Shown here: in pieces, positions 50,071-64,000 of the stretch
Layout: every line of letters starts with the position of its first letter
Position numbering within the stretch: position 1 is the first letter of the stretch
Source of the DNA: Bacteroidota bacterium
GTDB lineage: Bacteria > Bacteroidota > Bacteroidia > Chitinophagales > Chitinophagaceae
Length of the DNA stretch: 64,000 bases
Reading direction: 5' to 3'
Assembly: GCA_947460595.1 (NCBI GenBank)
Contig: CANHGS010000003.1
Coordinates: forward strand, 178,707-242,706
Position numbers and translations under genes: made by a program
The notes under the pieces: generated by a model
What the model saw: only the letters and a program-made list of their open reading frames with translations
Told to the model about the DNA's origin: nothing
Database searches by the model: none

Positions 50071-50108
50071 GTTTTTTGTATCTTTCGTGCAGAAGTAAAA
50101 CTCCTGCA

Positions 50109-53100
50109 ATGAAACAGATGACCCTCTTATGTGCATTGGTATTTTTGGTGGTAAGCCAAATAAGTGCTCAACCCAATTGGTTGCGTTATAGCGCCATATC
50201 GCCCGATGGCAAAACAGTAGTGTTCACTTATAAAGGTGATCTCTATAAAGTAGCCAGTAGTGGCGGAACAGCCGTGGCACTCACTAGTCATGAAGCCCAT
50301 GATTTTATGCCTGTATGGAGTCATGATGGCAAACAGATTGCATTTGCTTCTGATAGGTATGGCAATTTTGATATCTATACCATTCCTGCAGAGGGTGGTG
50401 AAGTAAAAAGACTCACTTACTACTCTACTCCGGAATATCCTTATGCATTTAGCAATGATGACAAGCAAGTTATGTTTGGATCTGCGCGTCAAGACGCAGC
50501 CAGCAATAGAACTTATCCAACAGCGTCACAGCCTGAGCTCTACGCCGTTTCAGTAAACGGTGGTCGTGTGAATCAGGTTTTGACTACGCCTGCAGAAGAC
50601 GTGAAATGGAGCAAGAACGGACAGTTGATGATTTATCAGGACAAAAAAGGTGGAGAGAATCAGTGGCGCAAACACCATGTATCGGCCATTGCGCGCGATA
50701 TCTGGGTGTATGATAGCAAGGCTGGCACGCACAAGAAGATCACCAGTTTTGCTGGAGAAGACCGCAACCCCATTTTCACAGATAATGACAAAGCCTTTTA
50801 TTATTTGAGTGAAGAGAGTGGCAGTTTTAATGTACACAAGATGAGTTTGGAAGGTGGCAAGAGCACGCAGGTCTCTAGCTTCAAAAAACATCCGGTACGT
50901 TTTCTGTCTAGTTCTAATAGCGGTACACTCTGCTATAGTTATGATGGAGAACTCTATACCCAAGAACCTGGGGCTAAGGCCAATAAAATCAATATTCAAA
51001 TTATCAGTGACGCCAAAGCCAATAACGAACGCCCTGTTCCAGTCAATGGTGGGGCGCGTGATCTAGCCGTATCGCCCAATGGCAAAGAAATTGCCTTTGT
51101 GTTTAGAGGAGAAGTATTTGTATCAGCAGTAGATGGTGGTGGTACCAAAAGAATCACCAATACCGCAGAGCAAGAACGCAGCGTAGGTTTTTCACCCGAT
51201 GGAAAATCATTGGTTTATGCTAGTGAGCGTGGCAATAGTTGGAAGATTTATCAAACAGAAATAGTAAGAAAAGAAGAACCCTACTTCTATGCATCCACTT
51301 TGCTCAAAGAATCGGCACTAGTGAGCAATGAAAAAGAAAACTACTTGCCCGCTTATTCTCCCGATGGAAAAGAATTGGCTTTTATTGAAAATAGGGCAAC
51401 GTTGAAAGTATTGAACCTTGCTAGCAAACAAAGCAGAACCATTTTAACCGATAAGGAATTATTTAGCTGGGGCGATAATGACCAGAACTTTGAATGGAGT
51501 CCCGATGGCAAATGGTTTGCTTTTAGTTATGCCGTAGAAGGTGTTTCAAATTCTGAGATTGGCATTATTAGCACCGATGGTAAGGGTAAGATTTTTAACG
51601 TAACAGAAAATGGTTTTAATGATGGCTCACCCAAATGGGCTATGGGTGGAAAAATGCTCTTGTATGAAACCGATAGAGATGGTTTGCGGGCCAAAGCCAA
51701 TAGCGGCGGTAGTCAGAGCGATATTTATGCAGTGGTGCTGAACCAAGATGCTTGGGATAAATTTAGACTCAGCAAGGAAGAAGCGGCATTGTTAAAGGAC
51801 CAAGATGAAAAAGCTGCTAAAGCCGATACCAGCAAAAACAAAATGAAAAAAGACAGTCTGATCAATATTGAATTTGACGGACTTACTTATAGAAAACAAA
51901 AACTCACTATCCACTCTTCTAGCTTGTCCGATGCCTTGGTGAGCAAAGACGGTGAAAACTTGTACTACTTAGCAAGATTTGAAAAAGGCTTGAATTTATG
52001 GAGCACCAATATTAGAACCAAGGAAACAAAAATTCTCTTGCCACTCAATGCCAATTCAGGATCACTGACTTGGGACAAGGATCAGAAAACTATTTTCTTA
52101 TTGTCTGATGGATCCGTGAGTAAGATTGATCCAACCAGTGGAAAAAGAGATGGCATTTCTATTAATGGAGAAATGCAATTAGACGTGGCAGCTGAACGCA
52201 AATTTATGTTTGAACATATTTGGCGCAGAACCAAGACCACTTTCTATACCGCTTCTTATCATGGCATTGATTGGGATAGCTACAAACCAGACTATGAGCG
52301 TCATTTGGCACATATTGGCAATAACTATGAGTTCACAGAATTACTCAGTGAAATGCTGGGAGAACTTAATGTGAGTCATAGTGGAGCTAGTTATGGTGCC
52401 TTCAATCCTAATGCAGACGCAACTGCTTCTTTGGGTGCCTTCTATAGTTATGCGCATAGTGGCAATGGGGTAAAAATTGATGAAGTAATTAAAGAAGGAC
52501 CACTAGACAAAGCAGGCTTTGGTATTAAAGCAGGCATGATCATTGAAAGTATTGATGGAGAACTCATCACGCCTGAAAAAGACTTGGCCCAATACCTGAA
52601 TAGAAAAGCAGGAAAAAATGTGTTGATTACTGTTTTGGATGCTGGCACCAAGAAGGAATTGATTGTAAAACCCATCGCCCTTGGCGAAGAAAATAGTTTG
52701 CTCTATAAACGTTGGGTACGCAAGAACCAAGAAGAGGTTGACCGTTTGAGCAATGGTCAGTTGGGTTATGTGCATATTCCTGGTATGAACGATGGTGCAT
52801 TCCGTGTAACCTATGAAGAAGTGATGGGCAAATACGCCACGCGCAAAGCCATGGTGATTGATACCCGCTTTAATGGTGGTGGAGACCTAGTGAGTGATTT
52901 GGCTGCCTTCTTAACGGGTAAAGCCTATATGTACAATAGCAATGACAAACGCATAGTCAGTTATGAACCTACTTTCCGTTGGACAAAACCTTCTATTGCG
53001 CTGGCCAATGAAGCCAATTATAGTGATGGTCATTGTTTTGCCTTTGGTTATCAAAATTTACAGATTGGTAAACTAGTAGGTATGCCTGTTCCTGGCACTT

Positions 53101-53309
53101 GTACTTTTGCAGGATGGGAATCCTTGCAAGACAATAGCATGCGTTGGGGTGTTCCACCAGTAGGTGTAAAAATGATGAATGGACGCTACCTTGAAAATTC
53201 ACAAACCGAACCCGATATCAAATTGATGAATGAATTTGAACAAGTGATCAGGGGTAAGGACCAACAATTGGAAGCAGCTATTAATGCCATGTTGAAAGAT
53301 TTGAAATAA
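50109..53309 (+). CDS. Tricorn-type S41 protease with beta-propeller
   Basis: About 1066 residues from ATG 50109; the longer TTG frame is rejected because the signal peptide MKQMTLLCALVFLVVSQISA sits here. N-terminal PD40/WD40 beta-propeller repeats (AISPDGKTVVFT, SHDGKQIAFASDR, SPDGKSLVYAS), a PDZ domain near 800-860 (LDKAGFGIKAGMIIESIDG) and an S41 catalytic core. ELNVSHSGASYG and NEANYSDGHCF carry the Ser residues expected from tricorn. Degrades peptides in the periplasm. Confidence 0.9.
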   Translation: MKQMTLLCALVFLVVSQISAQPNWLRYSAISPDGKTVVFTYKGDLYKVASSGGTAVALTSHEAHDFMPVWSHDGKQIAFASDRYGNFDIYTIPAEGGEVKRLTYYSTPEYPYAFSNDDKQVMFGSARQDAASNRTYPTASQPELYAVSVNGGRVNQVLTTPAEDVKWSKNGQLMIYQDKKGGENQWRKHHVSAIARDIWVYDSKAGTHKKITSFAGEDRNPIFTDNDKAFYYLSEESGSFNVHKMSLEGGKSTQVSSFKKHPVRFLSSSNSGTLCYSYDGELYTQEPGAKANKINIQIISDAKANNERPVPVNGGARDLAVSPNGKEIAFVFRGEVFVSAVDGGGTKRITNTAEQERSVGFSPDGKSLVYASERGNSWKIYQTEIVRKEEPYFYASTLLKESALVSNEKENYLPAYSPDGKELAFIENRATLKVLNLASKQSRTILTDKELFSWGDNDQNFEWSPDGKWFAFSYAVEGVSNSEIGIISTDGKGKIFNVTENGFNDGSPKWAMGGKMLLYETDRDGLRAKANSGGSQSDIYAVVLNQDAWDKFRLSKEEAALLKDQDEKAAKADTSKNKMKKDSLINIEFDGLTYRKQKLTIHSSSLSDALVSKDGENLYYLARFEKGLNLWSTNIRTKETKILLPLNANSGSLTWDKDQKTIFLLSDGSVSKIDPTSGKRDGISINGEMQLDVAAERKFMFEHIWRRTKTTFYTASYHGIDWDSYKPDYERHLAHIGNNYEFTELLSEMLGELNVSHSGASYGAFNPNADATASLGAFYSYAHSGNGVKIDEVIKEGPLDKAGFGIKAGMIIESIDGELITPEKDLAQYLNRKAGKNVLITVLDAGTKKELIVKPIALGEENSLLYKRWVRKNQEEVDRLSNGQLGYVHIPGMNDGAFRVTYEEVMGKYATRKAMVIDTRFNGGGDLVSDLAAFLTGKAYMYNSNDKRIVSYEPTFRWTKPSIALANEANYSDGHCFAFGYQNLQIGKLVGMPVPGTCTFAGWESLQDNSMRWGVPPVGVKMMNGRYLENSQTEPDIKLMNEFEQVIRGKDQQLEAAINAMLKDLK

Positions 53310-53310
53310 G

Positions 53311-54399
53311 ATGAAGAAAAAAGAATTTCTGGCGCATTTGCCCATTTGGACCCTAGTAGCTCCCATTACGGGATGGCTCTTTTTTGCGGGTGAAAAATTT
53401 GACTTAGGATTTATATTTCTATTGTGTCAAGGCGTGGCAATCATTGCTGCTGTATTGGCTGCGGTGCACCACGCAGAAGTTTTGGCGCATCGTGTGGGAG
53501 AGCCGCTTGGGTCTTTATTATTAGCCGTATCTGTTACCACTATTGAAGTGGCATTGATTGTTGAACTCATGCACACGGGTGGAGCTGACGCTTCTGTGTT
53601 GGCAAGGGATACGGTCTTTGCTGCAGAGATGATTATCATCAACGGCATCATTGGTCTTTGTTTGCTCATTGGCGGATTAAAACACCGAGAACAATCCTTT
53701 AGTTTAGACGGTGTGAGTGCCTCATTAACGGTTTTGGTAGCCATTTCAGTACTGACTTTAATACTCCCCAATTTCACCACTAGTATTCCCGGACCTTTTT
53801 ATAGTGCCAAACAATTGGCATTTGTAGCTGTAGTATCATTGGCCTTATATGGTACTTTTTTAGCCATGCAAAATGTACGGCATAAAGACCATTTTATTTC
53901 AAAAGAGGCTGTGGTGAATCATCCTCGTATGGGCAAACCCAGTAATCAAATTGCAGGTATAAGTGCCGTGCTATTGTTGATTGCCTTGTCTGCCGTGGTA
54001 TTATTAGCAGAAGCATTGGCTCCTGAAATTGAAGAAAGCGTTGTTGCAGCGGGTGCTCCAAAATCTATTGTGGGTATCATTATTGCCATGGTAGTTTTAT
54101 TACCAGAAGGCATTGCTTCTGTTCAAGCTGTTAGAAAAAACAACTTGCAAGCAAGTTTAAACTTGGCACTTGGGTCGGCCTTGGCCAGTATTGGACTAAC
54201 CATTCCAACTGTGGCGTTTATTTCACTCTATATGCATTTACCACTAACTCTAGGAATAGATACCAGATCAACCGTTCTCTTTTTGCTTTCCTTGTTTGTG
54301 ATTATATTATCTCTCAAAACTGGAAGAACTACCTTATTACAGGGAGTAGTGCTCTTGGTTATTTTTGCCGTTTACTTGTTTACCACCATTGTACCTTAA
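53311..54399 (+). CDS. chaA: ChaA-like cation/proton antiporter
   Basis: 362 residues, about 10 TM helices in two inverted repeats. Conserved acidic motifs GEPLGSLLLAVSVTTIEVAL and VVLLPEGIASVQAV with NLALGSALASIGLTIP are those of the CaCA superfamily, ChaA branch: Na+, K+ or Ca2+ against H+. It starts one base after the S41 protease stop, so it is co-transcribed with it. Confidence 0.85.
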   Translation: MKKKEFLAHLPIWTLVAPITGWLFFAGEKFDLGFIFLLCQGVAIIAAVLAAVHHAEVLAHRVGEPLGSLLLAVSVTTIEVALIVELMHTGGADASVLARDTVFAAEMIIINGIIGLCLLIGGLKHREQSFSLDGVSASLTVLVAISVLTLILPNFTTSIPGPFYSAKQLAFVAVVSLALYGTFLAMQNVRHKDHFISKEAVVNHPRMGKPSNQIAGISAVLLLIALSAVVLLAEALAPEIEESVVAAGAPKSIVGIIIAMVVLLPEGIASVQAVRKNNLQASLNLALGSALASIGLTIPTVAFISLYMHLPLTLGIDTRSTVLFLLSLFVIILSLKTGRTTLLQGVVLLVIFAVYLFTTIVP

Positions 54400-54458: not shown

Positions 54459-55814
54459 TTAAAAGGTCTTAGCAATTTCTTTATAGGTATATGGTAATAC
54501 CATCTGGAATCTGTTATAAGAAGATGGGGAAATATTTTTCTTATCAAAAGGCACATAGTTTACATACTGTTTATTAGCACCGGCCACTCTTCCATATTTA
54601 TAGTCATAAGTGAACCAGCCATCAGGCTGTAATTTCACTTCTTGTATACTAGTATTGGGGATTGTTATAAAAAATTGATTCTTTTTCTTTCCAATATTAT
54701 TCACTAATTGGTTGGTTCTTAATGCTACAAAAGCTTCTTTTGCGGTTTCCACTGCGGGATCTATCAATTGAACATGTGCTGCTAAACATGATCTGTATCT
54801 ATACTCGTTATTAAGTTTATAATTATAAAGCTCTTTGAGTACTTTGGCAATAGTATCTCTCATATACGGATAATGGGTACATCCTAAGATGAGTGTATTC
54901 ATGGGTTTTTCCATTTTTTGTTGCAACATATTTTCTAGCAAACTAACAAGGTGATATCGAACATAGTTTGATGGGTCATTTAGTTGCATGTCTAAACAAC
55001 TACCCTTATTGTCATACTCACATAATAATTTGTTATTGGTCTTATCAAATTGATAAGCTGACAACAATGTTGTATCAATTCTATACAAGCTATTTTTAAC
55101 AGAAGGTCCTTTATAATCGGGTCTTGCTTTAGTAATGGTATCAACAAAATAACTCCAATCACGATCAATACTTTCCGCTAATCCTGAACCACCTTGGCTA
55201 ACAATAGATAATTCAGACATGCCTTTTAATTTAGACATGGATTGTAAAGTTCTAGGATATCCATTAGATGCAACAGTTCCTGCGGTAGCAAAAACGCCGA
55301 TTGTGCCTGATCCATTTTTTTGCTGATACTCAAGTGCTGCTTTTGAACCCGCATCAATCACACCAAGTACTGACACATTATATCCTTCTTGTTTTAATTT
55401 TTTTCTAATGTCTTCTAAGGCATAAGCTGTTGCCGTATTACAGGCTAGAACAATCATTTTTACTTCAGATTTGGCAACATCTTTTTTCAAAAAATAGGCC
55501 ATATTCTTAAAAATATGCTCCTTTAATAACTCGGTCTTATTTTCAGCAGCATAATTACCATAAGGCATATTTGCTTGATCGGCTAAGTATTGAAAATATT
55601 CAGAGCTAAAATCTGGTTTACCATCTGCTCCTGGCTTACCAGTAGTATTATTAAAAACATCTAAGGTTAGCATTGCTTCCATAATGGTTAGACCACCTGT
55701 ACCTGAGTCAAAGACCCCAATTGGCAATGCTTTTTTTTGAATAGGTGCTAATTGAGCATGAGAAATAATTCCAATTAGCAATGTTACTGTTAATAGATAT
55801 ATACGATATTTCAA
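54459..55814 (-). CDS. Exported Asp/Glu racemase-like protein
   Basis: 451 residues with a signal peptide (MKYRIYLLTVTLLIGIISHA, cleaved before Gln). The MurI fold follows: GVFDSGTGGLT (D36), VLACNTATA (first catalytic Cys, C125) and LGCTHYPYM (second Cys, C312). All catalytic residues of glutamate racemase are present. It is far longer than MurI (about 265 residues) through an insertion near 50-80, a large one between about 195 and 290 and a C-terminal extension of about 110 residues. Last gene of the SusCD-acylase-GGT run. Predicted to act in the periplasm; substrate unproven. Confidence 0.8.
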   Translation of the reverse strand: MKYRIYLLTVTLLIGIISHAQLAPIQKKALPIGVFDSGTGGLTIMEAMLTLDVFNNTTGKPGADGKPDFSSEYFQYLADQANMPYGNYAAENKTELLKEHIFKNMAYFLKKDVAKSEVKMIVLACNTATAYALEDIRKKLKQEGYNVSVLGVIDAGSKAALEYQQKNGSGTIGVFATAGTVASNGYPRTLQSMSKLKGMSELSIVSQGGSGLAESIDRDWSYFVDTITKARPDYKGPSVKNSLYRIDTTLLSAYQFDKTNNKLLCEYDNKGSCLDMQLNDPSNYVRYHLVSLLENMLQQKMEKPMNTLILGCTHYPYMRDTIAKVLKELYNYKLNNEYRYRSCLAAHVQLIDPAVETAKEAFVALRTNQLVNNIGKKKNQFFITIPNTSIQEVKLQPDGWFTYDYKYGRVAGANKQYVNYVPFDKKNISPSSYNRFQMVLPYTYKEIAKTF

Positions 55815-55871
55815 ACTAATCCAATTTTTCTGTAATTAATCAATACTAAGAATAATAAAAAGCTTAGCGTT

Positions 55872-57596
55872 TTAATATCCAGCTACAGAATCGTCTCCCC
55901 TTCTATCTGCAGCAGCTTCAATTTTTTTGTTTCCATGAATATAAATCAATTCTGTTTTACCAATAGAATTTCTATTGGTTAATTTATAACCCATTGAATT
56001 GAGTGAGGTTTTTAATTTATCAGGAAACCCTGGCTCAATAAATACCTCATCCGGTAAATGCTGGTGGTGAAATTTTGGTTGATTAATGGCATCATCTGTA
56101 TTCATATTAAACTCCAAAACATTCATTAATGCTTGGAATACGGATGTAGGAATTGTTGTTCCTCCAGGAGTACCCACAACAATTACTGGCTTCCCATTTT
56201 TAGTGACAATTACTGGACACATACTACTTAGCATTCTTTTCCCGGGCTGTATGGAGTTTGCTTCTCCGCCTACAGCGCCAAACATATTTGCCACTCCTGG
56301 TTTAACGGAAAAATCATCCATTTCATTATTCAATAAAAATCCTGCTCCTTTTACAACCGTTTTACTTCCATAACCCCCATTCAAAGTAGTTGTGATACTC
56401 ACCATATTTCCTTCTTTGTCATAAATACTAATATGGGTGGTTTCTTCACTTTCTTTGATGTCACCTGCTTTTACTTGACTACTTTTACTGGCAATACCAG
56501 GAGTAAAATCTGACATTCTTTTTGAAATATACTGCTCATTACTAAGCGCCTTGATTGGAACCTTCCAAAAATCTGGGTCACCCAAATGCTCGGCTCTATC
56601 CGCGTAAGCCCTTCTTTCTGACTCAATCATGATTTGCGTAGCTTCTGGAGATTGAAATCCTTTTTTAAGTTGCTGGGTATTTTCAACCATCTTCATCATT
56701 TGCAAAAGGATGATACCACCACTGCTCGGAGGTGGGAATCCATGAATTTGATATCCTCCATAATTAAAAGAAAGTGGTTTCCTGATTTTGGCTTGATAAT
56801 TTTTTAGGTCTTCAACGGTGATAATGCCATTACCTCTTTGCATTTCTTCAGCAATGAGTTTGGCTGTTTCTCCTTCATAAAATCCCTTAGCCCCATTTTC
56901 TTTAATTCTGGTTAGTGTAGCTGCCAGTTCGGGTTGAAACAAAGTATCTCCTGCTTTCCATGCAGCAGATTTTACAAAAGCAGGTGAATAACTATTGTTT
57001 TTAATAAATGCTTTCTGATTAGAATTTAAACTATTGGCTTCTCTTTCAGTAATAACATATCCATTTGCTGCTAGATCAATGGCAGGTTGAATTAAAATTT
57101 TAAAATTTAATTTAGCAGCAGGTAAAGTTGAAAAGATACCTGCTATGGTTCCTGGAACCCCTGATGCCAAACGGCCATTTTGCGAGAGGTCTAGTTGTGC
57201 ATTTCCGTCCTTATCTAAATACATATTCTTAGAAGCCCTGCCAGGCGCTACCTCTCTGTAATCAATAGCTAGAAATTCATTAGTTGCTTTTTTAGCAATT
57301 AAAAAGCCGCCGCCGCCAATATTACCCGCTGCTGGATATACAACTGCTAATGCTAATTGAACAGCAATACCTGCGTCAAAAGCATTGCCTCCTCTCTTCA
57401 TAATTTGAGCACCAATTAAACTGGCAAGAGGATGAGCGCAGCTTACTGCTGCATTTTGATAAAACTCATGTTTTACCTGTGTGTAATGATATGGATCAAC
57501 TTCCTTTCCTGCACCTAACCAAGGAGTTTGTGATTGACTAAATACTTCTCCAATACCAATAATTACAAAAAAAATGATTGAAAATACGCTGTTCAT
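55872..57596 (-). CDS. ggt: Gamma-glutamyltranspeptidase
   Basis: 574 residues, Ntn-hydrolase cleaving gamma-glutamyl bonds. Signal peptide MNSVFSIIFFVIIGIGEVFS; substrate Arg in DYREVAP (R114); self-processing Thr in EETTHISIYDKEGN (T386); NNEMDDFS and RMLSSM provide the remaining active-site Asp and Ser pair. Length and motif spacing match E. coli GGT. Its ATG overlaps the acylase stop by one base. Releases glutamate from glutathione, gamma-glutamyl peptides or polyglutamate. Confidence 0.93.
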   Translation of the reverse strand: MNSVFSIIFFVIIGIGEVFSQSQTPWLGAGKEVDPYHYTQVKHEFYQNAAVSCAHPLASLIGAQIMKRGGNAFDAGIAVQLALAVVYPAAGNIGGGGFLIAKKATNEFLAIDYREVAPGRASKNMYLDKDGNAQLDLSQNGRLASGVPGTIAGIFSTLPAAKLNFKILIQPAIDLAANGYVITEREANSLNSNQKAFIKNNSYSPAFVKSAAWKAGDTLFQPELAATLTRIKENGAKGFYEGETAKLIAEEMQRGNGIITVEDLKNYQAKIRKPLSFNYGGYQIHGFPPPSSGGIILLQMMKMVENTQQLKKGFQSPEATQIMIESERRAYADRAEHLGDPDFWKVPIKALSNEQYISKRMSDFTPGIASKSSQVKAGDIKESEETTHISIYDKEGNMVSITTTLNGGYGSKTVVKGAGFLLNNEMDDFSVKPGVANMFGAVGGEANSIQPGKRMLSSMCPVIVTKNGKPVIVVGTPGGTTIPTSVFQALMNVLEFNMNTDDAINQPKFHHQHLPDEVFIEPGFPDKLKTSLNSMGYKLTNRNSIGKTELIYIHGNKKIEAAADRRGDDSVAGY

Positions 57597-59788
57597 TAAT
57601 ATACGTTTTCGCCGGGATGATAACTCAATTCTTTATTTTTTAAAACATCTGATTTATAAAAATTAACCGTTTTAAATTGATGATTAATATAACCATTTGC
57701 TTGGTCTAAGAAGTGTTTAGAACTAGGATTGGAACTATTTCCACCAGTATATATAGATTTTGCTTGTAGCTTTTTTCCAAATGATACAACAGCCACAAAT
57801 GTATTTCCTGTTGTACCATATCTAACCTTAGATGTTTTAGACTTTTTACTTGTATAAGCATTTAGCGACCCCATGAATGATGGAGTAGCGGTAACGGCTA
57901 AACTAGGTAACAAGTCAGAAGCTTCTACTCCAGATGCATTTCTTTGAAAACGATTGATTTTTCCCCATGGAATATTCCATCCACTCCAATCCTTCTGCAA
58001 ATCGTTTAGCACACTATCAAATAAAGCCAATTGAATCTCAGGAGTTACTTCACTTAAAGAAATATTAGAACCATTGCTAAGCGGATAGGATTGCTCGTTT
58101 GTGATAGGCTTTTTTAATTTAGTCATATTCAACTGCAATATTTTCTCCATCCATAGCACAGAGAGCGTTGTTGCAACACTTGTGGTGTCTGAATTAAAAT
58201 TCCAATTGCGTAAAACTTGTATTGGTTCCTCTCTTTTATCTGATTTACCAATTGCATCATAAGATTTTACTAATTGAGGAATGAACTTTGCAGCATTTGC
58301 TAAATAGGGACTATGAGACATTTTTAGTATTGTATCAAGTGTAGCATTTGAAATATTATTTAATTGTCTTATTGCATTTACTGCTCTTGGGGTATGTCCA
58401 TCAGGGAACATATACAATGGCTTTTTAAACATCACAGAATCAAACTTACCAATACCATATAGCGGTGTTGAATTACAATTTTGTACCCAGCCATTTTTAG
58501 GATTAACATAATTGGGTATATCATTTAACGGGTGAACCCCTTTCCAATTAGTTTCAGACTTATTGCCAGGAACGGGTAGCGTCCAATCAAATTTTGTATC
58601 TCTTATTGGAACAAAATTTCCGTGCCAGTATCCAATATTTCCAGTCTTATCAGCATAAATGGTATTGGTTCCTGTCATCACTCTCTTGTCTAGCCAACTT
58701 TTAAATTCTTTAAAAGATTTGCTTTTAGTGATATTCCAATGAACATTGAGTAGTTCAATGTTCTCATTGATGGTTTTAGCAGCAATCCAATTTCCATTTC
58801 TTTTAGCTACTACAGGTCCGTGAGCAGTTTTATACGTTATAAAAGATATACTGTCTTTACCTGAAGCGTTTTTAAAATAGATAGTTTTCTTAGAAGAATC
58901 AATAGGAATCCATTTCTCATCGTACTCATAATAGTGTTTCCCATTCTCTAATTTCACGGTTTCAGTATACAAGTCTTTGGCATCAGATAAAGTAACGGTA
59001 TGCATCCAACCGCAAAATTCATTGAAACCCTGAAAAATGCTAAACTCACCTAGAAATGGTGCTCCGTAAACATTCAAGCCTTCATTACTAACTAATTGAA
59101 CTTCTATTCTGTTATAAAATTCTGAATGGGGATTTATCAATAAAATAGGACTCTTATCCTTTGTGTTCATGCCACTTATTGCCCATCCATTTGAACCATC
59201 GTGTAAATCTTCCTTCAAAAAAGTTTGCAGGTTTAATGCAACTGTTCTATCTGAAAAAATTGGATACATGTTTTTGATATCCGCCTCAGTAAGATTTGAG
59301 TTTGCAATTGAAGGAATATTATTTAGTAATGGTACCCAAGGTTTAATCCTATTCAAAAGTTTAGGCTTAGTATTGGGATGAGTTAAAATATAATAATTAA
59401 TTCCAGCAGCATACGCGTCGCATAATTTTTTAAGATAAGGAGAAGTCTGTTTATAAAGTTTCTCGGCCTGTATAGTATCTATATAAAGTCTTGACCATAA
59501 ATCTTTATAAACAGACGTTTTTCCCTGAACTTCTGATTCTCTTCCCATTCTTGAAATGATAGCATCCTCCACTTTACTAAAATAATCTTCGCACTGAACA
59601 TACATCATCCCAAAAACAGCTTCCGCATCAGTATTGGCATATATATGAGGAACCCCCCAATTATCTCTAATAATCTGAATAGCGTTTGCTTGTTTTATCC
59701 ATGTAGATTTTTCGTCTTTGGTAAATGCCTGTGCAAATGCCATCACAGAAAATATGGAAAATATAAAAGTGATTATAGATCTTTTCAT
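57596..59788 (-). CDS. Penicillin-acylase family (S45) Ntn-hydrolase
   Basis: 730 residues with a signal peptide (MKRSIITFIFSIFSVMAFA). The autoprocessing site is GSNGWAISG, which places the N-terminal nucleophile at S199 of the beta chain. NWGVPHIYA opens the alpha chain, and FCGWMHTVTLSDAKDLYTE is closer to AHL/aculeacin-type acylases than to penicillin G acylase. It removes an acyl group from an amide-linked substrate. 12 nt after susD. Confidence 0.88.
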   Translation of the reverse strand: MKRSIITFIFSIFSVMAFAQAFTKDEKSTWIKQANAIQIIRDNWGVPHIYANTDAEAVFGMMYVQCEDYFSKVEDAIISRMGRESEVQGKTSVYKDLWSRLYIDTIQAEKLYKQTSPYLKKLCDAYAAGINYYILTHPNTKPKLLNRIKPWVPLLNNIPSIANSNLTEADIKNMYPIFSDRTVALNLQTFLKEDLHDGSNGWAISGMNTKDKSPILLINPHSEFYNRIEVQLVSNEGLNVYGAPFLGEFSIFQGFNEFCGWMHTVTLSDAKDLYTETVKLENGKHYYEYDEKWIPIDSSKKTIYFKNASGKDSISFITYKTAHGPVVAKRNGNWIAAKTINENIELLNVHWNITKSKSFKEFKSWLDKRVMTGTNTIYADKTGNIGYWHGNFVPIRDTKFDWTLPVPGNKSETNWKGVHPLNDIPNYVNPKNGWVQNCNSTPLYGIGKFDSVMFKKPLYMFPDGHTPRAVNAIRQLNNISNATLDTILKMSHSPYLANAAKFIPQLVKSYDAIGKSDKREEPIQVLRNWNFNSDTTSVATTLSVLWMEKILQLNMTKLKKPITNEQSYPLSNGSNISLSEVTPEIQLALFDSVLNDLQKDWSGWNIPWGKINRFQRNASGVEASDLLPSLAVTATPSFMGSLNAYTSKKSKTSKVRYGTTGNTFVAVVSFGKKLQAKSIYTGGNSSNPSSKHFLDQANGYINHQFKTVNFYKSDVLKNKELSYHPGENVY

Positions 59789-59800
59789 TCAAGAAATGTA

Positions 59801-61288
59801 TTATCCAATTAATTTATTATATAGCGCTTCGTTATTAGGAATAGGCCAAATATAGTTGCCATCTGAAGGGTTAGAAGCTGGAACGGGTGTAGAACCTGTT
59901 GGCGTTTTAGCTGGTATAGGCAAACCTAATCTCATTATATCGCCATTTCTGATGCCCTCACCAAAAAATTCAATTCTACGTTCAGCTATAATTTTATTTA
60001 TTAAATCTGCCTTGCTACTAGGTATAAAAACTGTAGTTGCATCCGATCTTCCTCTAACTGCATTTAATAAAGCAGTTGATCTTGTATCTAATCCATTTAA
60101 ATTAGCTAACGCTTCTGCTAAATTTAATAAAACTTCAGAATATCTAATAACTGGAATATAATCTGTAAATGGAGTACCAACTACAAATTTAGTACACCAA
60201 AAACGACCTTTGTTTGTTCCAGAAGGAGTTGTGAATATAAAATTTCTTCTCTTGTCTGTTGTCTTCCAAGTTGCATCACTTACAATACCTTGTTCAAATA
60301 CATAAAACTGTCCAGTACCCGCGGCTCCTAAACCTGTACCATCTGCTGAATTGGGCAAAAAATTAGTTGCTAAAGAATTACCCGGTGCATCAGCAGCTGA
60401 AAATGCAACGGAAAACATAGATTCTGTAGAAGTATAAGGCGATTTAAAAACTGTTGTGATATCAGCAGGCAAAGAATGAGTAGTTCTCGTTGCATTTGTT
60501 GTAGTAAAAGGAGCTGTTGTTGAAACAAGTTTATTTGCTTCTACTGTAACATTTGTATAATCGCCCATTGTTAAATAAACTCTCGTCTTAAATGCAATAG
60601 CAGAATTCTTATTTACTCTTGTTGTATTTAATGCAGCACTAGCATATTTTGAAGGCAAATTATTCTCTGCAAAATCCAGATCTTTAATAATTTGTTGATA
60701 TACTTCCGCTACTGTGCTTCTAGCTAAATTATAATCAGCAAGTCCAGTATTTCCTTTTAACCTTAAAGGTAAACCAGGGTTTTTGCCCGCATTATTTCTA
60801 TATGGCTGTGCATATAATTGTAATAATGAATAATAGGTAATCGCTCTTAAAACTTTGGCTTCTGCTGTATAATTATTATACAAGCTATCCCCGGCAGCTT
60901 TCCTACCCAAGGCATCCATGCCCTCTAGAAATACGTTACAAGCATTGATAGCTTGATAGGCTTGTTGCCACACAATATTAACATCAGTAGTACCTGCGTC
61001 TGTGAGCATCATATAGGTTAACCCACCTTGAAGTGGATTTTGGTTGGTGCTAATAAATTCTCCTGCTCTAGCTTCACTATAAAGTATATAATTACTTCCC
61101 CATAAACCTGTGCCTTTAAATGTAGCATACAGCCCATTAACTTGGTTTGAAATTCTGGCAGGAGTTTCAAATGCTGAGGCGCCGGCAATTAGTGTAGTAG
61201 GAACTGGGTTTAAGTCTTCGGTCTTAGTACATGAAATAGCAAATACAGCAACCATTAAAAGAAGACCAAAATATTTTATGTTTTTCAT
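59801..61288 (-). CDS. SusD/RagB-family surface lipoprotein
   Basis: 495 residues: lipobox signal peptide (MKNIKYFGLLLMVAVFAISC), helical TPR-like SusD_N region with WQQAYQAINACNVFLEG, and the C-terminal SusD domain with RYSEVLLNLAEALANL and AERRIEFFGEGIRNGDIMRLG. Binds the cognate ligand above the SusC channel. It lies 41 nt after the susC stop. Confidence 0.95.
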   Translation of the reverse strand: MKNIKYFGLLLMVAVFAISCTKTEDLNPVPTTLIAGASAFETPARISNQVNGLYATFKGTGLWGSNYILYSEARAGEFISTNQNPLQGGLTYMMLTDAGTTDVNIVWQQAYQAINACNVFLEGMDALGRKAAGDSLYNNYTAEAKVLRAITYYSLLQLYAQPYRNNAGKNPGLPLRLKGNTGLADYNLARSTVAEVYQQIIKDLDFAENNLPSKYASAALNTTRVNKNSAIAFKTRVYLTMGDYTNVTVEANKLVSTTAPFTTTNATRTTHSLPADITTVFKSPYTSTESMFSVAFSAADAPGNSLATNFLPNSADGTGLGAAGTGQFYVFEQGIVSDATWKTTDKRRNFIFTTPSGTNKGRFWCTKFVVGTPFTDYIPVIRYSEVLLNLAEALANLNGLDTRSTALLNAVRGRSDATTVFIPSSKADLINKIIAERRIEFFGEGIRNGDIMRLGLPIPAKTPTGSTPVPASNPSDGNYIWPIPNNEALYNKLIG

Positions 61289-61329
61289 ATCTGAATTGTA
61301 TTGAGATTGATGATTAAAGTTTTTTATTA

Positions 61330-64000
61330 CTAAAAATTCACTTTTAATCCAATGGTATAAATTTTTGCATTTGGCATCATATTTCTATCAAAACCTTGCG
61401 TTGCAGATGAGTTATTTTGACTAGTCACTTCAGGATCTGCTCCTGGATATGGAGTGAATATTAATAGGTTTTGGCCACTTACAAATATGCTCATATCAGC
61501 AATTTGCAATTTTTTTGCAAATTTTTCAGCCAGTGCATAGGATAATGTTACAGTCTTTAATCTAATATAATCACTAGAATAAACATTAGCTGAGATTGGT
61601 AAAGAGTAACCCCAAGAGGTAAAATCACCATCTTGCACTTTAGGAACATCAGTTATATCCCCGGGCTTTTGCCAACGATTCAAAACCAGTGTGGAGTTAT
61701 TCATGAATCTAAAATCCATTAACGTACCCTGTGTTCCATAGTACATGTAACCACCAAATTGGTAAGTAAATAAAGCATTTAATGACCATTTTTTGTAATT
61801 AAATGTATTTGTTAAACCACCATATATTTTGGGTGTTGTATTTTTGTACACAACCGCATCAGATGAAGTTGAAATTGCAGGTGCTTTTGTGCCGTCTTCA
61901 TATTCCCATTGACTCTTTCCATATACAGGAACTTGCTCGTATAAAACTTTCTTACCATTCCCGTCTAAGAATATTCTTCTGCCTGTTTTAACATCAACAC
62001 CATCTGTTCTTATTGCATAAATCATACCAACAGAGTACCCAGGTAAGGTAATAGAAACACAATCGGTTGAACCACCAACATTCCCAAAAAGAATATTAGG
62101 GACCTCAGGAGAAAGAGAAGTAACCATATTTTCATTAAATGAAAAATTGAAATTGGTTGACCATGTAAAATTTTTATTTTGAACTGGAACAGCATTAAGC
62201 GAAACTTCAATTCCTTTGTTATACATGGAACCTACGTTTGATAATACGGAATTTACTGGTGAACCGGGTAACCCCGCTGATGCCGGTGTTGGTACACCAA
62301 AAATTAACCCATCAATATTGTTCTTATAATAAGAGATATCTCCAGAAAACCTTCCCTTTAACATAGAAAAATTAAATCCAATATCAAATTTCTTACTTGT
62401 TTCCCAAGCTAAGTTCTCATTACCTGCAGATGAAAAGAATAAGCCAGGTAAGCCACCATATAGGTTAGCTGAATAATTCGTGAGCGATGCGTAATCACCA
62501 ATACCACTTAAATTTCCAACCTTACCGTAACTTGCTCTTAATCTAAAGGCTTCAAATACTTTTGAAAGTTTAGAATTAATAAAGAAGTTTTCAGTTGTTA
62601 AATCCCAAGCTCCAGAATAGGAGTAGAATAAACCAGACTTATTGTTTTTACCTAATAATGATGATTCATCATTTCTAACACTACCTGTTAAGAAATATTT
62701 CTTTTTATAATTATATTGTAATCTACTAAAATAGGAATTGAAATATTGGTAATAAATTTGGTTTGCTGTATTTGATATTACAATATTAGAAAATCCACCT
62801 TGAATATTTGAAAAGAAGGGATCGGACTGGTTTGATCTTAATAATCCAAATTGATCTCCGTTTTTACTTTGTTCCTCTTGACCTAATAAGAAATTAAAAG
62901 AATGATCATTGTAAGTCTTATCGGCAGTCAAAGTATTGGTTAAGGTATAGCTTTCTCTTTTAGAAGATATGCCAGTAGCACTTCCTAGTGCCGTATTTCC
63001 TTCATTCGTTCTTGGATCAAAATACCTATTTGTTCTACTACTGATATTATCAACCCCATATAAAGTTTTAAAAGTCAACCATTTTGTTGGCTTAATCTGC
63101 GCATATAAATTAGATTGAATAAAATTATTAGCAGTATTATCGTCATTAAATTCTAAAGTAATAACAGGATTGGTATAACCCATTCTTGTTTGAGATGTTA
63201 AATGGCCTTGATTATCCATTAGGGCCAAGTTTAAACCGCTCACATTATAACTACCATCTTTATTATAGGGCCCAATAATTGGTGCCGCAACCAATGCCAA
63301 TCTGTAAGCAACTGAATTTGCTGCTGTTGAGCTAACACCATTACCAGTTGATAAAATAGCAGTTGTTTTATTATCCGTATAATTTGTTTTAGAACCAATA
63401 GACAACCAACTATTTATTTTATGGTCTATATTATATGTAACAGATTTTCTTCCATAATCATTTCCTTTTACAATACCTTCTTGACTAGAATATGAAACTG
63501 AAAAGAAATATTTAGTACTTGTGTTTGCCCCAGATAAACTTATAGAATGTGTTTGACCATTAGCTTTTCTAAAAATATAATCATACCAATTAGTTCTCAC
63601 AATATTACCATCGGGACCAATTGAGTTACCATAATAATTTGTAGTTGCGTTATACGTTTTGGCATTAACCAACCCTTCATTTTTAATTTCTAAATATTGA
63701 TCGCCATTCAAAATTTCTGCTAAACGTGTTGCTTCACCAGATGAAAATGTAACATCTAAAGCTACTTTTGCCTTTCCTGACTTGCCACTTTTAGTGGTAA
63801 TGAATACAACGCCGTTTGCACCTCTACTTCCGTAAATACTTGTGGCAGCGGCATCTTTAGCAATATCTACAGATTCTATATCATTGGGATTTAAAAATGC
63901 CAAAGGATTATTTGATGCATTTCCTCCCACATTAATATCCTCTACATATACAGGAACACCATCTACCACCACAAGCGGATATGAGCTTAATGATAAAGAG
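61330..64000 (-). CDS. SusC-family TonB-dependent importer, partial
   Basis: The 3' part of a SusC/RagA outer-membrane receptor. The frame is open to the right edge, so the N-terminal signal peptide, CarboxypepD_reg_2 domain and TonB box lie outside the window. The plug end is visible (VVVDGVPVYVEDINVGG, NDIESVDIAKDAAATSIYG, GANGVVFITTKSGKSG) followed by a 22-strand-type barrel (LSGANTSTKYFFSVSYSSQEG) to the terminal ...YTIGLKVNF. It should import the substrate processed by the downstream enzymes. Confidence 0.95.
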   Translation of the reverse strand, partial: SLSLSSYPLVVVDGVPVYVEDINVGGNASNNPLAFLNPNDIESVDIAKDAAATSIYGSRGANGVVFITTKSGKSGKAKVALDVTFSSGEATRLAEILNGDQYLEIKNEGLVNAKTYNATTNYYGNSIGPDGNIVRTNWYDYIFRKANGQTHSISLSGANTSTKYFFSVSYSSQEGIVKGNDYGRKSVTYNIDHKINSWLSIGSKTNYTDNKTTAILSTGNGVSSTAANSVAYRLALVAAPIIGPYNKDGSYNVSGLNLALMDNQGHLTSQTRMGYTNPVITLEFNDDNTANNFIQSNLYAQIKPTKWLTFKTLYGVDNISSRTNRYFDPRTNEGNTALGSATGISSKRESYTLTNTLTADKTYNDHSFNFLLGQEEQSKNGDQFGLLRSNQSDPFFSNIQGGFSNIVISNTANQIYYQYFNSYFSRLQYNYKKKYFLTGSVRNDESSLLGKNNKSGLFYSYSGAWDLTTENFFINSKLSKVFEAFRLRASYGKVGNLSGIGDYASLTNYSANLYGGLPGLFFSSAGNENLAWETSKKFDIGFNFSMLKGRFSGDISYYKNNIDGLIFGVPTPASAGLPGSPVNSVLSNVGSMYNKGIEVSLNAVPVQNKNFTWSTNFNFSFNENMVTSLSPEVPNILFGNVGGSTDCVSITLPGYSVGMIYAIRTDGVDVKTGRRIFLDGNGKKVLYEQVPVYGKSQWEYEDGTKAPAISTSSDAVVYKNTTPKIYGGLTNTFNYKKWSLNALFTYQFGGYMYYGTQGTLMDFRFMNNSTLVLNRWQKPGDITDVPKVQDGDFTSWGYSLPISANVYSSDYIRLKTVTLSYALAEKFAKKLQIADMSIFVSGQNLLIFTPYPGADPEVTSQNNSSATQGFDRNMMPNAKIYTIGLKVNF

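Follow-up and report, generated by a model that had tools for sequence, protein, structure and literature searches.

A six-gene SusCD operon encoding an S45 acylase and a gamma-glutamyltranspeptidase in a member of the Chitinophagaceae

At one end of a 64,000-nucleotide stretch of DNA from a Bacteroidota bacterium of the Chitinophagaceae (the window, which lies on contig C3 in a genome of 3.66 Mb), genes for a SusC/SusD pair are followed on the same strand by genes for an S45 acylase, a gamma-glutamyltranspeptidase (GGT) and a glutamate-racemase-like protein, the last three all with predicted export. Which of these genes belong together, and what would such a set of proteins take in? A first-pass annotation had drawn the five genes as one locus for an N-acylated and/or gamma-glutamyl substrate, possibly containing D-glutamate. 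The locus is a real, conserved and unusual SusCD operon of six genes, which begins outside the window with genes for an extracytoplasmic function (ECF) sigma factor and FecR and of which the racemase is probably no fixed member. The reading that we favour, with slightly better than even confidence, is a self-regulated uptake operon through which a small N-acylated gamma-glutamyl compound would be imported; in the periplasm it would first lose its acyl group and next its glutamate.

A sample of 147 genomes of the genus was searched with the acylase and the racemase. Matches with E values no higher than 1e-200 were taken as acylase orthologues; those from other genomes were 59-77% identical. Thirteen genomes carried an acylase orthologue, twenty-nine carried the racemase and five carried both. 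The order sigma factor-FecR-SusC-SusD-acylase-GGT was found at six of the thirteen acylase loci, namely in this genome and in G188, G167, G145, G103 and G231 (where the sigma factor gene is truncated by the contig end), with protein identities of 64-87% across the order in the five relatives. SusC and SusD were 85% identical to those of G145, while nagB, a housekeeping neighbour in G145, reached 74%. The five-gene order ending in the racemase was sought in the other genomes examined and was absent, the six-gene operon without the racemase recurring instead; SusCD, acylase and GGT hold as a linked unit in six of the 147 genomes and the racemase is not conserved with them.

In G159, G100 and G171, SusD (and SusC where the contig reaches) adjoined the acylase with no GGT seen, the sequence downstream of the acylase being 722 bases in G159 and about 270 bases to the contig end in G171. 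Linkage of the acylase to SusCD was kept in nine of the 13 orthologues. In a sample of 394 genomes of the family such an acylase (E value up to 1e-205) was present in at least three, a lower bound as two candidates were scored per genome: this genome, G145 and G077, which belongs to another genus and has SusCD divergent from the acylase. We infer that SusCD and the acylase form the core and that GGT and Fec-type regulation mark one lineage. The acylase would then be the older SusCD partner, GGT and Fec-type control having been gained in that lineage or, alternatively, lost elsewhere. A limited check of the open-access full-text literature found no published description of this gene set or of an exported MurI-like enzyme.

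When the open reading frames were re-read, the gene set, strand, coordinates and gaps from SusC to the racemase proved correct, and the families assigned to the five proteins agreed with their profile matches (Table 1). The genes are separated by 41 bases (SusC-SusD), 12 bases (SusD-acylase), a 1-base overlap (acylase/GGT) and 57 bases (GGT-racemase). The boundaries drawn earlier did not stand, as the window truncates SusC and the FecR and ECF sigma factor genes upstream had been missed. Export signals had been noted on four proteins and were seen again by eye only, as an N-terminal hydrophobic stretch without a lipobox in the acylase, GGT and racemase and as a lipobox-like Cys in SusD. The adjoining SusC and SusD genes make this a putative SusCD uptake locus resembling a polysaccharide utilization locus, and no glycan-degrading enzyme was among the locus genes, where the only enzymes are the acylase, GGT and the racemase-like protein. 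A scan for sigma-70-type promoters returned 32 promoter-like sites against 43.0 expected and a terminator scan three against 6.2; with both counts below expectation the scans were uninformative on the ends of the operon.

Table 1. Genes of the locus and the gene adjoining it, with positions in the window unless a contig (G000:C3) or locus (L005) is named
Feature	Position	Strand	Length	Profile or structure match; remark
ECF sigma factor	L005:2772-3392	minus	206 aa	upstream of SusC/FecR, outside the window
FecR	L005:1620-2741	minus	373 aa	upstream of SusC, outside the window
SusC/RagA-type TonB-dependent transporter, 3' part	61330..64000	minus		TIGR04056 558 bits
SusC, full gene	G000:C3:240036-243563	minus	1175 aa	runs about 857 bases past the window edge
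SusD/RagB-type surface lipoprotein	59801..61288	minus		PF14322 and PF07980 over cut-off; best solved match 3l22
Exported S45 (penicillin/cephalosporin acylase type) Ntn (N-terminal nucleophile) hydrolase	57596..59788	minus		PF01804 381.5 bits, over cut-off
Exported GGT, E. coli type	55872..57596	minus		TIGR00066 528.8 bits, cut-off 357.85
Exported glutamate-racemase-like protein	54459..55814	minus		TIGR00067 107.8 bits, below cut-off 146.65; TTG start

With genes for an ECF sigma factor and FecR next to that of a TonB-dependent transporter, the locus has the gene content of FecIR-type regulation. Full-length SusC carries Plug and CarbopepD_reg_2 domains, and ahead of the carboxypeptidase-regulatory-like domain the first 140 or so residues show a likeness to an STN signalling domain at scores below the Pfam cut-off (STN 18.3 bits against 28.4; FecR_C 23.4 against 24.4). 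This extra N-terminal part was present in all six full operons. SusC of G159 and of G077 aligned only from residue 138-142 onward, G159 additionally retaining residues 1-62 at 48%. The locus is like the FecI/FecR-regulated SusCD/RagAB-type loci of Bacteroidota in that SusC, SusD, ECF sigma factor, FecR and exported hydrolases lie in a single gene run; it differs from them in its enzymes, an S45 acylase and a GGT here and glycosidases or peptidases there.

The acylase combines a PF01804 match with a Ser at the predicted start of the beta chain, as expected of an S45 enzyme. Residues 37-706 aligned with glutaryl-cephalosporin acylase, Ser199 falling on residue 1 of the mature beta chains and His221 on beta-23, both kept, and autocleavage is predicted before Ser199. 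The likeness to glutaryl-7-aminocephalosporanic-acid acylase and penicillin G acylase lies in this long alignment and in the two conserved residues, and the difference from the former lies in Phe252, which occupies the position of Arg57-beta, while Arg227 occupies that of Tyr33-beta. In cephalosporin acylase Arg57-beta binds the glutaryl carboxylate. With Phe252 in its place the acyl pocket would differ and a preference for glutaryl groups is unlikely, and the Arg expected of a glutaryl-cephalosporin acylase is missing here. A paralogue 39% identical to the acylase lies elsewhere in the genome (L165:8067-10289, G000:C13) near an Amidohydro_3 gene, and matches at about this level of identity occur in many genomes of the genus.

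That the S45 family takes in penicillin, cephalosporin and N-acyl-homoserine lactone acylases, and that this acylase weakly matches PvdQ, would be consistent with a detoxifier or signal quencher (a beta-lactam or N-acyl-homoserine lactone acylase) beside a SusCD pair importing something unrelated. The best solved matches are glutaryl-cephalosporin acylases, however, the score against the PvdQ model was 101.3 bits where the cut-off is 950, the linkage to SusCD recurs in the genus as described above, and the operon has no glycosidase; we regard such a role as very unlikely.

GGT retains Thr386, Arg114, Asn406, Asp428, Ser457 and Ser458, whose functions we assume to be those of the E. coli equivalents, and Thr386 is the predicted nucleophile. 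The TIGR00066 match, the Thr nucleophile and the glutamyl-binding Arg, Asp and Ser-Ser together identify the family. The best solved match was E. coli GGT (2e0w), over the full length and with the catalytic and glutamyl-binding residues that were checked all kept. In a plasmid collection, two entries labelled E. coli were 43.8% identical to it; all protein matches there were below 60%, and no close plasmid relative was found. The present GGT differs from the E. coli enzyme in lying within a SusCD operon and in having Glu425 in place of E. coli Gln430. The genome encodes a second GGT that is 64% identical (G000:C30:31266-32780; L006:11249-12907) and a third that is 25% identical (C3:135267-137039).

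An E. coli-type GGT with these glutamyl-binding residues would also suit the scavenging of glutathione or another gamma-glutamyl thiol, the acylase then playing a separate part. Against this, the more constant partner of SusCD is the acylase and not GGT, glutathione bears no N-acyl group and is small enough to pass through porins, and the 64% identical GGT is encoded elsewhere in the genome. We consider glutathione scavenging quite unlikely.

For the favoured uptake operon the following sequence of steps may be proposed. SusD would bind and SusC import a small N-acylated compound, and occupied SusC would signal through its N-terminal domain to FecR, so freeing the sigma factor and inducing the operon. 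Unanchored in the periplasm, the acylase would remove the acyl group and expose an alpha-amino group, and GGT would then release glutamate from the deacylated gamma-glutamyl compound. Cleavage is likely to be periplasmic and to follow import since neither enzyme has a lipobox, which fits a small substrate. The gamma-glutamyl donor of GGT must have a free alpha-amino group, and deacylation would therefore precede the GGT step. In this genome the downstream racemase gene may be read through and its product, if in the path, would interconvert released D- and L-glutamate. The residues checked in both enzymes support the amide part of the substrate proposed earlier, and N-acylated gamma-glutamyl compounds appear the most fitting substrate class; the D-glutamate part was not borne out. 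The operon points to SusCD systems that import non-glycans and process them with amide-cutting enzymes.

Several observations weigh against this reading. The STN-like domain fell under the Pfam cut-off in all three SusC sequences tested (15.2 bits in G145 and 14.8 in G167). Four of the 13 acylase orthologues (G139, G192, G236 and G202) have no adjoining SusCD, and GGT adjoins the acylase in six of 13, with six lacking it (one over 722 bases only) and one unreadable, so that the acylase-GGT pair is not obligatory. Compared with SusC and SusD, the other operon genes are less conserved with respect to G145 (FecR 65%, sigma factor 73%, acylase 76% and GGT 80%). The order of acylase before GGT is reasoned from GGT chemistry, and sequence does not fix the substrate in either the S45 acylase or the GGT family.

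The racemase-like protein has the fold and the two Cys of the Asp/Glu racemase superfamily (PF01177 38.5 bits, cut-off 31) and missed the threshold of the MurI equivalog model TIGR00067. Cys125 and Cys312 were invariant in 22 aligned sequences, all 22 of which matched that model (best E value 7e-38). A structure model (mean predicted local distance difference test score, pLDDT, of 87.4) gave glutamate racemases as best matches, with a template modelling (TM) score against 1zuw of 0.79 by target length and 0.47 by model length at 23% identity. The protein is thus a member of the cofactor-independent superfamily with a modelled MurI fold and putative racemase activity. It shares the fold and both catalytic Cys with MurI and differs in its predicted export, in being about 185 residues longer (signal peptide counted) and in its sub-threshold score. 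The other MurI-like protein of the genome (275 aa, contig C27) starts directly at the catalytic motif and has no export signal. Of 31 racemases, 30 had a hydrophobic N-terminal stretch ahead of the catalytic domain, the exception (L030) being cut by a contig end, and export looks like a family trait. To our knowledge no role has been assigned to such an exported subfamily, and we know of no earlier case of periplasmic racemization by the MurI superfamily.

In a tree of the 31 sequences the racemase clustered with L016, L017 and L018 at 98-99% bootstrap; a methyltransferase-linked clade of 17 rows (96/92) stood separate from this group. Its nearest relatives come from metagenome-assembled Bacteroidota, several labelled Sediminibacterium or Chitinophagaceae, and the family occurs in records of Bacteroidetes, Verrucomicrobia and Planctomycetota/Pirellulaceae. 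Proteins from outside Bacteroidota were 39-57% identical (L036 and L039 from Pirellulaceae, Planctomycetota; L033 from Verrucomicrobia), and the L033 gene shares four bases with the end of a sulfatase-containing gene.

Thirty-six other, distinct racemase loci were read, and none had an operon orthologue within the DNA available; the five-gene unit including the racemase was rejected as a conserved unit. The 36 comprise 28 loci from the first search together with L136-L141, L147 and L166, while L142-L146, which duplicate loci of the 28, are uncounted. Upstream sequence was too short to show GGT at L030 (19 bases), L040 (0 bases) and L139 (684 bases) and extended 1.8-2.4 kb at L016, L022, L027 and L029; for the remaining genus loci linkage was judged from which genomes carry the acylase. 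Only in this genome, among those examined, does the racemase adjoin the operon. In G188, G167, G145 and G231 acylase and racemase lie on different contigs (C33/C32, C19/C3, C1/C5 and C22/C20, respectively), the racemase being flanked by relatives of a DUF1801/OmdA protein and a methyltransferase (families named on L031). The racemase is therefore probably an adjoining gene and not a constant component of the operon.

Were it a true member, the operon would handle gamma-glutamyl compounds containing D-glutamate (peptidoglycan peptides, poly-gamma-D-glutamate or natural peptides with gamma-linked D-Glu), the racemase would turn freed D-Glu into periplasmic L-Glu, and the two would once have been adjacent and later separated or lost in most relatives. 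The gene does lie next to GGT on the same strand at a short distance, with no terminator-like site on that strand between them. Its relatives also share positions with the operon or the acylase, in that the same housekeeping genes adjoin them in separate genomes. G202 has its solitary acylase, and L032 and L043 have their racemases, in the interval from rhomboid-rlmH to nagB. In G167, G145 and G231 the end of the operon faces nagB-pyk-pfkA, and the opposite flank, where visible, is not rlmH. The L018 racemase begins next to rlmH and is backed by a GH97 gene. All of these genes whose orientation was read relative to nagB are directed to it. That site may be a mere insertion hotspot, though, and nagB of the present genome is on another contig, C2.

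In G002 (L141:9901-12846) a single 981-aa frame joins the racemase domain to a PF00144 serine hydrolase and is followed by sigma factor, FecR, SusC and SusD genes, SusC and SusD also follow the racemase in L139, and an Amidohydro_3 protein follows it in L035. The SusC proteins of L139 and L141 are only 26-28% identical to the one here, and these neighbours may be due to chance as SusCD genes are common in Bacteroidota. The racemase was present in five of the six full-operon genomes compared with 24 of 141 others (p 0.001), a subset picked after inspection and with shared ancestry ignored, whereas over all acylase orthologues it co-occurred in five of 13 compared with 24 of 134 (Fisher p 0.13). 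Only one of the five genomes holding both genes has the racemase adjoining the operon. The nearest racemase relatives, L016 and L017 (84-85%), showed no operon gene in the DNA available, and their genomes (G132 and G136, assigned by coordinates) are outside the thirteen with an acylase orthologue.

Membership of the racemase is on balance unlikely, and what speaks for the D-glutamate part of the first-pass annotation is one genome together with weak positional hints; by these positional echoes the operon may still be linked to D-glutamate. In a specific form of such a link, N-acylated gamma-D-glutamyl natural products such as bacterial or cyanobacterial lipopeptides would be taken up on induction, deacylated and cleaved at the gamma-glutamyl bond, and an exported MurI-superfamily branch so far undescribed would racemize the D-glutamate outside the cytoplasm without a cofactor; we regard this as quite unlikely. 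What had first been observed is thus partly confirmed and its interpretation partly supported, and the six-gene operon without the racemase is the unit that we retain.

Across related genomes (L162, L128, L129, L163, L032, L043 and L018) the inserts found in or next to the rhomboid-rlmH to nagB-pyk-pfkA interval differ, being the operon, the lone acylase or the racemase, and the interval is a possible insertion hotspot. The label "D-aminoacylase-like" for neighbouring amidohydrolases was dropped, being unsupported beyond the Amidohydro_3 family. Upstream of the racemase fusion in L141 are two beta-lactamase-family genes and a gene for a Cys/Met PLP (pyridoxal phosphate) enzyme. The tRNA scan of the window found no tRNA. 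Beyond the racemase, genes for a Tricorn-like protease and a calcium/cation-proton exchanger (ChaA-like) lie at 50076-54399, convergent with it.

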